64,000 bases of DNA from Leifsonia sp. 71-9 (GTDB taxonomy: Bacteria > Actinomycetota > Actinomycetes > Actinomycetales > Microbacteriaceae). A program made the position numbers and the translations under genes. Shown here one piece after another: positions 8,584 through 51,910 of this stretch (the first letter of the stretch is position 1; the number at the start of each line of letters is the position of its first letter). Location of the stretch: assembly GCF_001898805.1 (NCBI RefSeq), contig NZ_MKVJ01000020.1:7373-71372 (forward strand), in the 5' to 3' direction. A model generated the notes under the pieces. It worked only from the letters and a program-made list of their open reading frames with translations. It was not told the origin of the DNA and did no database searches.

Positions 8584-10005
8584 TCAGCTACCCGGCCAGG
8601 GTGGCGTCGTCGGGGCCGCGGCGGGCGCCGCGGGTGCGGGCACCACGTACGGGTCGGGGAGTTCTTGACCCGCTTGGCGCGCTTCCACGAATCGGACGAG
8701 CTGCAGGTCGAGCCCTTCCTTCCGCATCCGCAGGTCGAGGTAGAGCAGGGAGACCGCGGCGGTCTCCACGACGCTCCCGATCGCTCCGACGACGGCGCCG
8801 ACGACGCTCGCCAGCGCGCTGACGCCGAGCTGGCCGACGATGACCTGGGTGAAGGAGGACGCGTCGTCGGTGCTCAGCGAGGTGGGGGCGAAGATGCCGC
8901 CCAGCATGCCGCCGATGAGGCTGAAGGGTGTCGCCACGATCTGGGTGACCATGTAGATGATCACTCCGATCAGGGCGATCAGGCCGAACGACTTCCAGAA
9001 GTAGCCGTTCGTGAGCCGCCAGGACCGGGCGACGGCCTCGCCGATCCGGAGCCGCTCGAGAACGATGGCGCTCGGCACCAGTGCGATCTTGGTGTTGATC
9101 CAGATCGCCAGGGCGACCAGGCCGAAGCCGCCGAGGATGCCGACGGCGACGGCTCCGACGACGCCCGCCCCTCCACCGAGGGCCGCCAGAGCGAAGACGA
9201 CGGCGACCACGAGGGCGATCGCCACGAACCAGGCGAACGACACGAGGAAGGTCCAGCCGATCAGCGCACCGATCCGGCCGCGCACGAGCTGCCAGAGCGA
9301 CCGGAACGTCAGCTTCTCGCCGAGCGTCTCGCGCGCCACCTCTCCGACGACGACGCCCTGCAGGAGGGCGCCGGAGATCGCGGAGACGACGAGCGAGAGC
9401 AGGCCGAGCACGACGGTGCCGCCGATGGCGCCCGCGAGCAGGGTGTTCCGGTCGGACGCGTCGGAGTTGACCACGCGCTCGAGGAGGAAGTAGACGGCGC
9501 CGGCGAGGACGACGGAGACCAGGATGGTCGGGATGCCCTGCAGCAGCAGCGCCGCTCCGACGGTGATCTTGGGGTTGCGGCGCAGCGCCTGGAAGGGGGC
9601 GCCGATCAGTGTCCCGAACGACAGCGGGCGCAACGGGATCAGTCCCGGCTTGGGCGGCGGCGCCCAGCCCGGCTGCTGACCGTATGGGCCGTACTGGCCG
9701 CCGGCCTGCTGCCACCCGGGCTGCTGCTGCCACGCGGGGGGCTGCTGGCCGTAGCCGGGCTGCTGTCCGTAGCCGGGCTGCTGTCCGTAGCCGGGCTGCT
9801 GTCCGTAGGCCGGAGGCTGCTGTCCATAGCCGGGCTGCTGTCCGTACGCCGGAGGCTGCTGCCCGGCCGGCTGCTGACCGTATCCCGGCGCGTACTCGCC
9901 GTAACGCGGCTGCTGCTGCCCCTCCGGCGCGCCCGGAGGCGTGCCGCCCTCCGGCGCCGTCCCCCCGGCTGCCTGCGGTGTCTGACCGATCTGCTCGTCG
10001 CTCAC
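8584..10005 (-). CDS. Polytopic membrane protein with Gln/Pro/Tyr/Gly-rich repeat N-terminus
   Basis: 473 residues, first gene of the MoxR/DUF58 operon. Residues about 1-130 are low complexity, with at least seven copies of a P(G/A)YGQQ unit and Trp variants (QQPGW). Residues about 140-450 form a six-helix membrane domain of the glycerophosphoryl-diester-phosphodiesterase membrane-domain/DUF7847 type, including [20 protein letters not shown] and [19 protein letters not shown]. The GTG at 10005 was chosen because GAGAGGG lies 6-12 bases upstream; an in-frame ATG at 10020 is possible. It may be a scaffold or lipid-domain protein for the downstream MoxR/DUF58 machinery; this is inference. Confidence 0.85.
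9741..9890 (-). repeat. In-gene 18-bp tandem repeat encoding PGYGQQ units
   Basis: About seven partly degenerate 18-bp units (on the plus strand ctgctgtccgtagccggg) code the tyrosine/glutamine-rich N-terminus of the membrane protein. Three consecutive copies are nearly identical, so length variation by slippage is expected. Confidence 0.85.
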
Positions 10006-47308: not shown

Positions 47309-48652
47309 ATGGGGATGGACGCAGCGCCGATTTCGGCGTCGGCCGCTCCGGCGTCGGCCCCGGGGGCGCTGCGCCGGGCGCTCGCGCATCCCCTCGCGCT
47401 CTGGATCGGCTTCCTGCTCGTCCACCTGATCGTCGGCGGTCTCGCCCTGCACGGGGGCAAGGGCCTCGGCGACGTCTTCTTCGTGTACAAGCCGTGGGCG
47501 CAGCTGGCCGCCCAGGGCACCGAGATCGTCGGGGTGAACTCCGACTGGGTGTACCCGTTCGGCGCGCTCGTGCCCGTCATGCTGCCGCTGCTGTTCGGCG
47601 CGGACAACTACGTGGGCGGCTGGCTCACGCTGGTGCTCCTGCTCGACGCGGCGGCGTTCGCGACCCTCATCGTCGGCCGGGACCCGCGCCGGATCACCGC
47701 CGCCTGGTGGTGGCTCGGCTTCCTGCTGCTGCTCGGACCGGTCGCCGTCGGCCGCCTCGACTCCGTCGCGGCCGCGCTCGCGATCGTGGGACTGCTCTGG
47801 CTCGCCGTCCACGAGCGCGCCGCGGTGGTGGTGCTCACCATCGCCACCTGGATCAAGGTGTGGCCGGCCGCCGTGCTCGTCGCCGCCGTCGTCGCGCTCC
47901 GCTCCCGCTGGCACATCGTGCTGGTCGCCGCGGTCACCTCGGCCGTCATCGTGGCGGTTCCGCTGATCTTCGGCGCGGGGATGCACCTCCTCAGCTTCAT
48001 CACCATGCAGACCGGCCGCGGCATCCAGATCGAGGCGCCCGTCAGCACGTTCTGGATGTGGCAGGCCGCCTTCCACGTCCCCGGCGCGGCCGTCTACTAC
48101 GACTCTCACCTGATCACGTTCCAGGTGAGCGGCGCCGGCACGGAGCTGGCCGGGTCGCTGATGAACCCGCTGCTCGCGGTCACCTGCGTGGTCGTCGCCC
48201 TCCTCGGGATCCGCGCCCTGCACCGTGGGACGCCGTACACGCGCATCCTGCCGGAGCTCTCCCTCGCGATCGTGACCGCCCTCATCGCGTTCAACAAGGT
48301 CGGCTCGCCGCAGTACATGACCTGGCTCGTCGCCCCGGTCCTCATCGGGCTCGTCTACCAGGGCAAGGGGTTCCGCACCCCCGCGATCCTCGTCCTCGCC
48401 GCCGCCGGCCTCACCCAGGTGTTCTACCCGTTCCTGTACGACTACCTGCTGCTGCCCGACCCGGGGATGGTCGCCGTGCTGACCGTCCGCAACCTCCTGT
48501 ACTTCGTCATCCTCGGCTGGGCGATCGGGGCGCTGTGGCGTCATCGGCACGCCGACGACGCCGTCTACGACACCGTGCCCGCCCGGGTCTGGCCGTTCCG
48601 CGCGCCCGTCGCCGCGGCGGCCGGCGCCCCGCTCCGAGAGGAAACACCATGA
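47309..48652 (+). CDS. GT87/DUF2029-like polytopic membrane glycosyltransferase
   Basis: 447 residues with about 10-11 hydrophobic segments (e.g. about 34-56, 95-115, 150-190, 205-235, 340-370). An early outer loop holds VYKPWAQLAAQGTEIVGVNSDWVYPFGAL, as in GT-C type polyprenyl-phosphate-sugar-dependent enzymes of the DUF2029 group such as actinobacterial mannosyltransferases. Catalytic Asp candidates lie in the loops before helix 2 and helix 4. Substrate unknown. The stop overlaps the start of the thiamine-binding gene by 4 bases. Confidence 0.8.
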   Translation: MGMDAAPISASAAPASAPGALRRALAHPLALWIGFLLVHLIVGGLALHGGKGLGDVFFVYKPWAQLAAQGTEIVGVNSDWVYPFGALVPVMLPLLFGADNYVGGWLTLVLLLDAAAFATLIVGRDPRRITAAWWWLGFLLLLGPVAVGRLDSVAAALAIVGLLWLAVHERAAVVVLTIATWIKVWPAAVLVAAVVALRSRWHIVLVAAVTSAVIVAVPLIFGAGMHLLSFITMQTGRGIQIEAPVSTFWMWQAAFHVPGAAVYYDSHLITFQVSGAGTELAGSLMNPLLAVTCVVVALLGIRALHRGTPYTRILPELSLAIVTALIAFNKVGSPQYMTWLVAPVLIGLVYQGKGFRTPAILVLAAAGLTQVFYPFLYDYLLLPDPGMVAVLTVRNLLYFVILGWAIGALWRHRHADDAVYDTVPARVWPFRAPVAAAAGAPLREETP

Positions 48653-48951
48653 TCGTCGCCTTCTCCGTCGCCCCCAGCGGCGGCCCCGACGGCTCCGACT
48701 CCGTGCACGACGCGGTCGCCGCCGCCGTCCGGATCGTCCGCGAGTCCGGGCTCCCGAACCGCACCTCCTCGATGTTCACCGAGATCGAGGGCGAGTGGGA
48801 CGAGGTCTTCGACGTCGTCCGTCGCGCCACCGAGGCCGTCGGCGCGTTCGGCACCCGCGTCTCGCTCGTGCTCAAGGCCGACATCCGCCCCGGCCACACC
48901 GGCGAACTCGACGGGAAGCTCGAGCGCCTGGAGGCCGCGCTCGACGCCTGA
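48649..48951 (+). CDS. MTH1187-type thiamine-binding protein
   Basis: 100 residues, ferredoxin-like MTH1187/YkoF fold: MIVAFSVAPSGGPDGSDSVHDAVAAAVRIVRESGLPNRT-like start (small strand then helix) and RVSLVLKADIRPGHTGELDGKL. Family members bind thiamine or related metabolites. The gene's last codons (EAALDA-stop) form the left copy of the 30-bp direct repeat that flanks the following GC-poor island, so this gene end is the insertion site. Confidence 0.88.
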   Translation: MIVAFSVAPSGGPDGSDSVHDAVAAAVRIVRESGLPNRTSSMFTEIEGEWDEVFDVVRRATEAVGAFGTRVSLVLKADIRPGHTGELDGKLERLEAALDA

Positions 48952-48960
48952 GCGGGCCGG
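48931..48960 (+). repeat. Left copy (attL-like) of the 30-bp direct repeat bounding the GC-poor island
   Basis: Identical over 30 bp to 50530-50559. It covers the last six codons and stop of the thiamine-binding gene and 9 bases beyond. Inside it, GGCCGCGCTC and GAGCGGGCC form an imperfect inverted pair around a 7-base spacer, like a tyrosine-recombinase core or the gene's own terminator. Confidence 0.85.
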
Positions 48961-48966
48961 CACCGG

Positions 48967-49932
48967 TTAGCCCACTCCGTCCAGGTGTGTTGGCTGATCG
49001 TCAGCTCGAATATCCGTTAGTACGTACGTCTGTCGCGAGCGCGCGTTGGTTCCGGAGGGAATCCAACGAATAGTCCTGAACGTGGCAACGGCAGTTGTGT
49101 TCTCTGCGGAAAAATGCGCGATTGGATCAATGAGGTCCGGGTCAACGATCGCGGCTTCGATGGGACCACCCGTGTCTGGCAGAAACCACATGGCGCCGAC
49201 CGAGCGGCGCTGGCCATCCACCCTTCCGCGCAGGGTGGCGGTATCTTCTTCGCTTGTCTTTGCATCCAAGGCGTCTAAAAGCGCTAGTGCGCCGCTTCGA
49301 CGAATAGAGAGTACGAGTGGATCATCCTGCGGTCTCCTGAGCTCGCCCTCGACGTTCCAATCGGTCCGAGAAATTGCCTTCGCTGCGCGCCGCAGGCCTG
49401 CGTGGGCCTTAGTAGGCAGCTGGTTGGTCATACCGCCGAGAAGTGTGAAGCTTTCTTCTTCGTCGGAGTTTCCTGCGCGAGAAAGAACCGCTGCCACGAT
49501 TCCGAGCGACAACGAATGCTGTGATTCAGTTCGAGCTTCGATGAAACTCCCGTCTTCCTCTTGGGGCGGCGGGACGCGGAGAACCAGATGAACTGATCCG
49601 GGAGTCGGAGCCACGATGTGCAGCGGAGAACGAAGACGCTGGCGCCCCATTGCCTGTTTGGAGATCTCTTTGACCGCGTCCGATACACCTCGAACGAATT
49701 CGGCGAAGCTGAACGCGTCGGTCTCGTGGCCAGGAACTGATTCACCAGAAAGATGAATGTCAAGTTCGGCTTGAAATCCGTTCGTCAACTCGAATAGAGC
49801 GTGGCGGAGTTCAGGAACTTGGCTCGCCGAAGCTTCGAGGGAAGTTCGAGCAATTCGCGACGCGAAGTCGTCGCCAGAGGCCGCATGCCATGCGCGACGG
49901 AGCTCACGCTCAAGCTCTTGCGAAGAACTCAT
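48967..49932 (-). CDS. Unrecognised protein, second gene of the GC-poor island
   Basis: 321 residues; I do not recognise the family. The N-terminus (1-50) is helical and charged, about 95-125 contains a basic segment (KQAMGRQRLRSP) and strand LHIVAPTPGSVHLVLRV, and the C-terminal 90 residues look beta-rich (RGRVDGQRRSVGAMWFL, AAIVDPDLIDPIAHF, TYVLTDI). No signal peptide or membrane helix. The ATG has a near-perfect ribosome binding site (GGAGGTGAT) and overlaps the stop of the DUF6932-like gene by 4 bases (ATGA), so the two are co-translated. Codon use and GC (about 52-53 % in sampled lines) are unlike the flanks. Confidence 0.75.
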   Translation of the reverse strand: MSSSQELERELRRAWHAASGDDFASRIARTSLEASASQVPELRHALFELTNGFQAELDIHLSGESVPGHETDAFSFAEFVRGVSDAVKEISKQAMGRQRLRSPLHIVAPTPGSVHLVLRVPPPQEEDGSFIEARTESQHSLSLGIVAAVLSRAGNSDEEESFTLLGGMTNQLPTKAHAGLRRAAKAISRTDWNVEGELRRPQDDPLVLSIRRSGALALLDALDAKTSEEDTATLRGRVDGQRRSVGAMWFLPDTGGPIEAAIVDPDLIDPIAHFSAENTTAVATFRTIRWIPSGTNARSRQTYVLTDIRADDQPTHLDGVG

Positions 49933-50423
49933 GCGATCACCTCCAAATAGCCCTTTGAGACATTGTGGCGCGTGCCACCGTCGTCGGCGCGCACGGACGA
50001 CCAAGTCTGGTGCCAGTAAGGCGCAGAATCCGGCTCCTCACGGATTGCGATGAATGCATCTACCAGGCCATTCATGGGCTGCAGGCGTCGTCCCGCCCCG
50101 TTCGACGTCATCAAGTGCGAGAGGGAGTCCTGCGAGTTCGGAGATAGATCGTTGAGTTCGATTTGTCGCGCTAGCACGACGACGTCGATGTCTTTAGGTG
50201 CGGCCGAAACTTTGTGTGTGACGAATCCTCCGTCCACCCAGTAACGATGGTTCGGGAGAAGCACAGCCATTTGACGCAACCACACGCTGAACGCATCGAA
50301 GATCAATTGACGTTGCGTCGCGAAGGGTGCGTTCGTCACAAACATGGCTTCAAGCTCATCGAGGGTCGCCCGGTGACGCCCCGCCGGTAATAGCCCTTCA
50401 GACGTGAGGCTGGGAATACTCAA
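49929..50423 (-). CDS. DUF6932-like protein with nucleotidyltransferase-type motif, first gene of the island
   Basis: 164 residues from TTG 50423. N-terminus GLLPAGRHRATLDELEAMFV and the motif VDGGFVTHK...KDIDVVVL match the DUF6932 pattern as I recall it. G65-G66 followed by D78-x-D80 fits hG[GS]-x(9-13)-Dh[DE]h of the Pol-beta-type nucleotidyltransferase fold (MNT-like). It may modify a protein, RNA or small molecule; MNT-type proteins often serve as antitoxins or defence components, but that is inference. The TTG start has GGGGGAG very close upstream. It is followed by its partner with a 4-base overlap. Confidence 0.72.
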   Translation of the reverse strand: MSIPSLTSEGLLPAGRHRATLDELEAMFVTNAPFATQRQLIFDAFSVWLRQMAVLLPNHRYWVDGGFVTHKVSAAPKDIDVVVLARQIELNDLSPNSQDSLSHLMTSNGAGRRLQPMNGLVDAFIAIREEPDSAPYWHQTWSSVRADDGGTRHNVSKGYLEVIA

Positions 50424-50529
50424 ATCTCCCCCAAATATGTCGTACCTGAGTGAGCTTATTGGAGGGTCTTGCCCTCAGGCACTCCCCAAAATGGGCTGCG
50501 CTGCATGTTTAGGACGATCCCGCATGCGT

Positions 50530-50559
50530 GAGGCCGCGCTCGACGCCTGAGCGGGCCGG
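50530..50559 (+). repeat. Right copy (attR-like) of the 30-bp direct repeat
   Basis: Exact duplicate of 48931-48960, here without the rest of the thiamine-binding gene. The interval 50424-50529 between the island genes and this repeat holds the island promoter region, a short GAGGG-CCCTC hairpin (50462-50476), and a 16-codon minus-strand frame (ending at 50456) of unclear meaning. Confidence 0.85.
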
Positions 50560-50626: not shown

Positions 50627-50632
50627 GTGCGA

Positions 50633-51910
50633 GTGAATCCCGGAATCGACGGGCCGACGCAGTTGTCGTCGGCCCGTACTCGTCTTGCGCTGCTCGCCCT
50701 CGCCCTGGGCGGGTTCGGCATCGGCTCCACCGAGTTCGTCGCGATGGGGCTGCTGCCCAACATCGCCCACGACCTCCTGCCGCAGGTCTACGCGGCGTCG
50801 TCGACCGACGCGATCGCGCAGGCGGGGTGGATCATCTCGGCCTACGCGCTCGGCGTCGTCGTCGGGGCCCCGACGATCGCGGCGGTCGCCGCGCGGCTCC
50901 CGCGCAAGAAGCTGCTGCTCTGGCTGCTCGTCGCCTTCACCGTCGGCACGATCGCGTCGGCGCTCGCGCCCACGTTCGGGCTGGTGCTGGTCGCCCGGTT
51001 CATCTCGGCGCTCCCGCACGGCGCGTACTTCGGCATCGCCTCGCTGGTGGCGGCGTCCCTCATGGGCCCGGGCAAGCGCGGGCAGGGCGTGGCCTTCGTG
51101 CTCTCCGGGCTCACCATCGCGAACGTGATCGGGGTGCCGTTCATCACCTGGGTGGGGCAGACCACCAATTGGCGTGTCGCGTATCTGGTCGTCGCGGCGA
51201 TCTTCGCGCTCACCTTCGCCGCCGTCGCGCTCCTCGTGCCGTGGCAGGCGGGCGATCCGAAGGCGACGCTCCGCAACGAGCTGCGGGCCTTCGGGCGCCT
51301 GCAGGTCTGGCTGGCGCTGCTGATCGGGGCCATCGGCTTCGGCGGGTTCTTCGCCGTCTACACGTACATCTCGCCGATGGTGACCACGGTCACCGGGCTG
51401 CCGGAGTCCGCGGTGCCGTTCGTGCTCATCCTGATCGGCATCGGCATGACCGTCGGCAACATCCTGGGCGGACGGATGGCCGACCGCAGCGTGGAGCGCA
51501 GCATGATGCTGTTCTTCGTCGTGCTGCTGGTGGGGCTGGCCGTGCTGTTCTTCACGGCGGCGACGCTGGCCGGGCTGCTGATCTCGGTGTTCGTGATCGC
51601 GGGAGCCGCCTCGGCGCTCTCGCCCACCATCCAGACCCGGCTGATGGATGTGGCGCACGACAGCCAGTCCATCGCCGCGGCGCTGAACCACTCGGCGCTC
51701 AACATCGCGAACGCCTCGGGCGCCTTCCTCGGCGGCCTCACGATCGCCGCCGGATTCGGCTACGTCTCGCCGGTCGCCGTCGGCGCCGTGCTCGCCGTGG
51801 CGGGCATCGTCCTGGCGCTGGTGTCGTTCGGCATCGACCGCTCGCGCATCCACCGCGGCGTGGACACGGGTGTCGTGCACGCTCAGCGCCCGACGGTGCC
51901 GATCGACTGA
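50633..51910 (+). CDS. MFS transporter, DHA1/AraJ-type drug exporter
   Basis: 425 residues, 12 membrane helices. Helix 1 is LALLALALGGFGIGSTEFVAMGLLPNIAHDL, typical of the AraJ/sugar-efflux-like DHA1 group. The loop 2-3 motif is RLPRKKLLLWLL, and GRMADRSVERSMML is the repeat of motif A in loop 8-9. RFISALPHGAYFGIASL is also diagnostic. Likely exports small hydrophobic compounds or sugars with proton antiport; substrate unknown. No regulator is adjacent; it lies just outside the island. Confidence 0.92.
   Translation: MNPGIDGPTQLSSARTRLALLALALGGFGIGSTEFVAMGLLPNIAHDLLPQVYAASSTDAIAQAGWIISAYALGVVVGAPTIAAVAARLPRKKLLLWLLVAFTVGTIASALAPTFGLVLVARFISALPHGAYFGIASLVAASLMGPGKRGQGVAFVLSGLTIANVIGVPFITWVGQTTNWRVAYLVVAAIFALTFAAVALLVPWQAGDPKATLRNELRAFGRLQVWLALLIGAIGFGGFFAVYTYISPMVTTVTGLPESAVPFVLILIGIGMTVGNILGGRMADRSVERSMMLFFVVLLVGLAVLFFTAATLAGLLISVFVIAGAASALSPTIQTRLMDVAHDSQSIAAALNHSALNIANASGAFLGGLTIAAGFGYVSPVAVGAVLAVAGIVLALVSFGIDRSRIHRGVDTGVVHAQRPTVPID

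Follow-up and report, generated by a model that had tools for sequence, protein, structure and literature searches.

PDC-M63AB, a phage defense candidate of the PADLOC library, consists in its enterobacterial form of a DUF6932 gene and a gene for a partner protein of ~310 amino acids (aa). In Escherichia coli phage PhiR30_1, the two genes (PDC-M63A, 8e-36; PDC-M63B, 4e-42) directly follow cI. Here, we describe a two-gene island in Leifsonia sp. 71-9 (referred to below as the host; assembly GCF_001898805.1), located at positions 48931 to 50559 of a 64,000-nucleotide stretch of contig NZ_MKVJ01000020.1 (positions 7,373 to 71,372), which we refer to as the window. The island shares with PDC-M63AB the arrangement of two adjacent genes, and its DUF6932 gene (gene B) matches PDC-M63A. 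In contrast to the PhiR30_1 genes, the island is free-standing and does not lie in a prophage.

Other described pairs occupy a slot beside phage repressor genes, namely, lambda RexAB and its actinophage relatives (e.g., CarolAnn gp43/44 and Sbash gp30/31). According to the accessible parts of two reports, the actinophage Rex-like pairs combine a DUF4747 protein with a membrane protein, several of them lie beside the repressor gene, and the repressor and CarolAnn 43/44 are expressed together (PMC6426606, PMC11077077). The phage relatives of the island pair share this slot, but the parts differ: B is nucleotidyltransferase-like, and its partner (protein A) has no DUF4747 match. A RexB-like membrane protein was not matched either, B being a DUF6932 protein with helices and strands (no membrane-helix predictor was run). 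We therefore rejected membership in the RexAB group, to which the pair may at most be similar in its working. The island itself contains no repressor gene.

The order of repressor, nucleotidyltransferase, and partner recurs in Mycobacterium abscessus prophages (genes 3/2 of prophiGD21-3 and prophi58-1) and in phiT46-1 (genes 38/37), where the protein in the repressor's place before DUF6932 is unnamed. The C-terminal 100 residues of the M. abscessus partner align with the A profile (hhalign P = 0.0017; probability, 15%). This partner differs from A in its length (292 aa) and in its unaligned N-terminal part, and an integrase gene is adjacent in the prophage. Genes 37 and 38 of phiT46-1 are not mentioned in the accessible part of PMC7849713. 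Among the papers searched, none mentioned DUF6932 and one mentioned PDC-M63, and no title or opening of an abstract was about such a pair.

Results

The island lies between two identical 30-bp direct repeats (48931-48960 and 50530-50559), which flank 1,569 bp. The left copy takes in the final six codons and the stop codon of a gene encoding a thiamine-binding protein (Thiamine_BP; 48649..48951, + strand; 100 aa; PF01910, E = 1.2e-25), plus 9 bp, and the right copy matches it exactly. The 3' end of this gene is the insertion site, and the gene is intact. An exact-repeat search thereby bore out a first-pass annotation made from the sequence alone, which had placed the repeat at both of these positions and had described the gene as restored at the left junction.

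In G021 (96%), G002, and G011, the three relatives nearest to the host on the basis of the thiamine gene, blastn placed the two flanks side by side, separated by only a short spacer. The Thiamine_BP orthologue of G021 is 99% identical to that of the host, and in all three genomes the gene stands beside a major facilitator superfamily (MFS) transporter gene, which in the host forms the right flank, outside the insertion (50627..51910, + strand; PF07690, E = 7.5e-43). Alignment of the host's joined flanks with five relatives showed a single gene end, behind which the spacer varies. At the end of its Thiamine_BP gene, G021 has one partial copy of the 30-mer, agreeing with the first 24 bases at 23 positions. 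Given the empty site in the three nearest relatives, the island is an insertion; the first-pass annotation had anticipated such strains, running directly from the thiamine gene to the MFS gene. It had also suggested that strains might hold other cargo between the same repeats; none was seen. Far from both genes standing here in all relatives, the 321-aa protein A was present in 2 of 28 genomes of the genus, i.e., the host and a second Leifsonia genome (G026). Together with the empty relatives, this distribution makes it most likely that the pair was gained in the lineage of the host. We conclude that the insertion is real and recent and that it holds a gene pair of phage and plasmid type.

The 30-mer is the longest nontandem exact repeat of the window (runner-up, 20 bp). 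In the whole assembly (4.48 Mb; 24 contigs), it is present only as these two copies when up to three mismatches are allowed, and its 20-bp core (up to one mismatch) was detected in 3 of 249 genomes of the family, with two copies in the host and a single copy in both other genomes. The repeat is thus not one that occurs at many unrelated sites. The G+C content between the repeats is 57.8%, for which 52 to 53% had been too low an initial estimate, compared with 73.4% and 70.5% in the 3-kb flanks and 71% in the window; none of 625 sampled 1,569-bp windows reached a value as low. Third-position G+C is 0.57 in gene A and 0.67 in gene B, well below that of three neighboring genes (0.96 to 0.98), indicating that the pair does not share their codon bias.

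Integration classically leaves direct repeats at the 3' end of a gene and restores that gene. The locus has in common with tyrosine-integrase genomic islands the repeat at a gene 3' end, the restored gene, and the empty site in relatives. Unlike such islands, it has no integrase, and no other element was seen at the site in 60 relatives. By profile, no tyrosine recombinase was detected inside the island or in the 64-kb window (serine recombinases were not searched), and the nearest of six matches in the host genome, located at a distance of ~46 kb, has a similar counterpart in each of the five genomes searched. The initial remark that no integrase lies inside can thus be extended to the surrounding ~46 kb for tyrosine recombinases. 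The inverted pair reported within the 30-mer does exist (CGCTC, a 7-base spacer, and GAGCG). Its supposed suitability for a tyrosine recombinase is not supported, since arms of at least this length were present in 9.6% of 9,139 30-mers from the window and in 19% of 5,000 shuffles. At chance level, the 5-bp arms provide no evidence for a recombinase core. With no sign of an attachment site in any of the 60 relatives, a tyrosine recombinase as the maker of the repeat is not supported. What remains of the proposed footprint of site-specific integration is the repeat at the gene end and the empty site; the integration itself may have been site specific.

Two further origins of the repeat were considered and rejected. 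Terminal inverted repeats were absent from the island ends (best 15-mer agreement, 8/15), on which ground a transposon or DDE insertion sequence was rejected. A phage attachment core was rejected because the 21-bp core of the repeat was found in none of the viral contigs and because the phage and plasmid matches listed reached only ~90%. The best of these extended over 29-30 bp (phage, E = 0.05, with 15 of 488 records listed; plasmid, E = 0.01, with 10 of 331 listed). An 18-mer of the repeat occurred in four viral contigs, none with a Thiamine_BP match and one with an integrase-like open reading frame (ORF) 3.7 kb away.

Both genes of the island are on the - strand. Gene B (49929..50423; 164 aa) has a TTG start with GGGGGAG upstream, and its stop overlaps the start of gene A (48967..49932; 321 aa) as ATGA; between the end of gene A and the left repeat lie 6 bp. 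The leader of the two genes (50424..50529, - strand), presumed to contain the promoter, reaches to the right repeat, and no sigma-70-like consensus was found in it. On the basis of the ATGA overlap and the joint presence of both genes in 17 of 20 loci of relatives (see below), A and B form a coupled operon.

Protein B matched PF22014 (DUF6932; E = 4.7e-27), PADLOC PDC-M63A (E = 5e-21), and one PHROG family of unknown function (E = 4.4e-14). A nucleotidyltransferase motif comprises a G, a D-x-D, and a third acidic residue. In an alignment of 21 B sequences, G65, D78, D80, K157, and G158 were invariant, and D122 was conserved in at least 90%, so these residues would fit a working nucleotidyltransferase. 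The structure model of B (predicted local distance difference test [pLDDT], 85.4) contains mixed helices and strands. For protein A, no Pfam or PADLOC family was found at E values up to 1. It had a weak PHROG match to a family of unknown function (E = 0.045) and a subcutoff NCBIfam match to NF053583, a putative phage structural protein family (E = 1.9e-4; 20.9 bits versus a cutoff of 60). Across 21 members of the A family, Pfam matches were limited to single members (E = 0.018 or worse), including one antitoxin-like RHH model (0.027), and neither A nor any of the 21 members matched HEPN or DUF4747 (Pfam, E up to 1). The A family is not named in the libraries searched. The structure model of A (pLDDT, 64.4) was too weak for use, and no credible sequence match to solved structures was obtained for A or B.

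Protein A was detected in 8 of 299 genomes of the family, 7 of 396 of the order, and 8 of 394 of the class (the host being counted in each), in addition to G026. We examined 20 of the 21 nonhost loci, leaving out G1011 (a stop inside a weak match). Seventeen contained both genes (including L061, with a shortened A frame), two contained A only, and one contained neither (E = 1e-3). Tyrosine recombinase ORFs were present within ~6 kb in 6 of 19 nonwindow pair loci (L070, which has no confirmed match, was dropped from this count), compared with 0 of 60 thiamine-gene stretches searched with the same profile. At L062 and L067, the recombinase ORF is the next gene, starting <100 bp behind the pair. 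Four plasmid records from Rhodococcus and Mycobacterium encoded A, as did one phage record, that of Gordonia phage Holliday, in which the pair comes directly after the immunity repressor gene and an integrase gene is close by. On one of the Rhodococcus plasmids (L072), the pair is located near an erm gene, an IS110 transposase gene, and a gene for a predicted pore-forming effector.

DUF6932 was matched in 15 distinct phage records (ten by B and seven by the E. coli version), some of which represent the same phage, and gene order was examined in nine of them. The same-direction gene just before DUF6932 was an annotated repressor gene in six of the nine, and in a Streptococcus satellite phage it was a gene for a DNA-binding protein. 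Directly behind DUF6932, eight of the nine had a partner gene of 292 to 329 aa. The exception was Streptococcus phage MissE1 (L102), which has a regulator gene three genes before DUF6932 and no large partner; there, DUF6932 sits behind a RelE/ParE-type toxin gene. Phages with DUF6932 and a partner behind the repressor included those of Mycobacterium, E. coli, and Erwinia. Four viral contigs also contained DUF6932 loci. Protein A was clearly matched in L077 (1.8e-102) and weakly matched in L075 (3.3e-8), L076 ends early, and the 318-aa neighbor in L078, a contig that terminates in the partner gene or just behind it, had no A match at E = 1. Comparisons of the A profile with the satellite-phage partner (P = 0.39) and with the L078 protein (P = 0.22) were not significant.

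The second Leifsonia copy, in G026, is found in the same block; like that of the host, it follows the thiamine gene, and the two copies have the same orientation. A small gene and a palindrome separate it from the thiamine gene, and it adjoins an inverted MFS gene. Relative to the empty relative G010, the insertion in G026 is ~1,653 bp (1625-3277 of L023) and consists of the pair only, and no exact flanking repeat of at least 13 bp was found within 1.7 kb to the left and 4 kb to the right. The A reading frame is as long in the host as in G026. The two copies encode proteins with identities of 82% (A) and 81% (B). At fourfold sites, the pair had an agreement of 0.318 versus 0.282 at saturation (220 sites; P = 0.12), and the six flanking genes, when pooled, had an agreement of 0.585 versus an expected value of 0.468 (1,052 sites); in this comparison, the thiamine gene alone is near saturation too (58 sites), and the silent sites of GC-poor genes may change faster. 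Protein identities of 81 to 82% with silent sites near saturation favor strong constraint on the pair proteins, as judged from sequence divergence. Both copies have retained a low G+C content. Because the silent sites have diverged beyond those of the flanks, because the G+C content is low in both, and because 26 genomes of the genus have no protein A, we favor two probably separate arrivals in Leifsonia, with the silent-site evidence being moderate.

The thiamine-MFS spacer contains palindromes in several genomes. The half-site GAGGTTCACGTNRTTGCGC is dispersed over the genomes of the host (35 copies) and of G002 (58 copies), in each of which the control count was 1. It resembles a repetitive extragenic palindrome (REP) and was not enriched in G026 or G010 (4 and 3 versus control counts of 2 and 1, respectively). 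A palindrome of the GAGGTTCACGTNRTTGCGC family was seen at G002:C1:140018-140072, and this family occupies the spacer in G002 and G011; a different palindrome is found there in G010 and G008. Breaks or hairpins at palindromes may make this spacer receptive. The MFS gene beside the thiamine gene is inverted in G008, G010, G019, G022, G023, G024, G026 (L023 3272-4595), and G027. Other insertions with normal G+C contents were observed in the thiamine-MFS-response regulator block of G020 (~7.7 kb; L137), G022 (~14 kb; L138), and G001 (~4.6 kb; L123). Elsewhere in the window, tandem 18-bp repeat units are present at 9749-9846.

Discussion

We tentatively favor, at somewhat less than an even chance, the interpretation that the island is a bare two-gene operon of phage and plasmid type, acquired recently by one crossover-like event and having a lysogen-type phage-exclusion role. 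In this scenario, the pair and a single 30-mer would have been borne on a circle, which crossed over with the chromosomal 30-mer where the thiamine gene ends (3' end); the segment would have entered as one piece, leaving the order repeat-pair-repeat with the host gene intact. The observed order, with its intact gene, is the expected product of one crossover between a circle and the chromosome. Either an integrase supplied in trans or homologous recombination across the 30 bp could have made such a crossover. As for function, the DUF6932 gene of phages typically lies behind the repressor gene and should be expressed in the lysogen, so that its most likely task would be to block other phages, perhaps through modification by B of A or of a target upon the sensing of an infection. 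A lysogen-type exclusion or defense module would be the best candidate function. A divergent PDC-M63-like candidate for exclusion or defense is the description that suits the pair best, and the second model of the library places it outside PDC-M63AB.

Several observations weigh against this interpretation. The island contains no integrase or other mobility gene. None of 60 relatives with Thiamine_BP has a 3'-end copy (at least 14 bp) or an integrase up to 20 kb downstream, where the integrase profile found four of five control loci (missing that of an M. kansasii plasmid) and one of the 60 regions was just 6.7 kb. The window's own locus is the only one of 20 loci with a match to have a long flanking repeat, the longest elsewhere being 17 bp over a 5.2-kb span; a flanking repeat is therefore no inherent feature of the pair. 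Comparison of the outer ends of the two Leifsonia insertions revealed no significant similarity (for the 30-mer, 734 of 5,000 shuffles were as good). Protein A, unlike the partner in PDC-M63AB, matches no PDC-M63B model (PADLOC, E up to 1), and the A-family profile did not align significantly with the E. coli partner (hhalign P = 0.13). Finally, in the only direct test of PDC-M63AB that we found in print, deletion of the prophage-borne system from E. coli NILS69 revealed no defense against 10 phages; according to the accessible part of that report, only mutants without the restriction island or PD-T4-3 altered infection by the 10 phages, which the authors point out were virulent double-stranded DNA phages (PMC12409345).

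The same arrangement could have arisen by decay, with the repeats representing attL and attR of an integrated prophage or integrative element from which a deletion left the pair alone. The repeats at the 3' end of the restored thiamine gene match the classical pattern, and the company kept by the pair elsewhere is consistent with such a source: the M. abscessus prophage pair sits between repressor and tyrosine integrase genes, an integrase gene is near the pair in Holliday, a recombinase ORF is the next gene in L062 and L067, and viral contig L078 breaks off in the partner gene or just behind it. We consider this origin improbable given that no phage genes lie between the repeats, that A reaches to within 6 bp of the left repeat and is of the same length as in G026, and that no full element was seen at the site in 60 relatives. 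The same decay would also be needed twice, because the insertion in G026 (1.65 kb) is pair-only too. End-joining would instead make the repeat a by-product, in which a staggered break was filled in (the 30-bp duplication) and a foreign fragment was ligated via Ku. The host genome encodes Ku (LigD was not searched), the inverted pair is at chance level, the two Leifsonia insertions have no ends in common, and the dispersed-family palindromes in the spacer of G002 and G011 could be break-prone. Such a capture appears unlikely, since 30 bp is long for a fill-in, the fragment would have to be exactly one complete operon, and another species has received this pair in the corresponding spacer. A far less probable history is that the pair resided in the spacer of the common ancestor of both carriers and was lost elsewhere, the repeat being a later duplication. 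The shared spacer and orientation relative to the thiamine gene would agree with old residence, as would the near saturation of the thiamine gene (58 sites). It is opposed by the absence of protein A from 26 of 28 genomes of the genus, by silent sites at saturation in a pair whose six flanking genes, when pooled, keep a 0.219 excess identity, and by the low G+C content of both copies and their different junctions.

The role of the pair also has a competing explanation, namely, that it is a toxin-antitoxin or addiction module in which B keeps A in check. MntA-type enzymes hold their partner in check in this manner. Like the nucleotidyltransferase of MNT-HEPN systems, B is small, has the conserved G and D-x-D together with a third acidic residue (D122, at least 90%), and is coupled to a partner gene, and the pair is carried on plasmids. 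The partner does not fit, because A has no trustworthy toxin match and none of the Pfam matches of the 21 A proteins is HEPN (E up to 1), and we regard this function as doubtful.

In the most far-reaching reading, which we consider rather unlikely, a bare, recombinase-free two-gene exclusion unit might have split from the post-repressor slot of temperate phages, traveled by itself as a 1.6-kb segment, and settled twice in one Leifsonia spacer, each time from a different source. If true, the pair would be a smallest possible mobile defense cassette, with a partner protein family that is not yet named. The pairing of A with DUF6932 spans actinobacterial chromosomes, plasmids, and a Gordonia phage, and the post-repressor position gives grounds, open to testing, for regarding PDC-M63-like pairs as putative lysogen-expressed exclusion systems. 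With its clean repeat, its empty site in relatives, and no integrase, the Leifsonia island offers a tractable case for how very small defense modules move.

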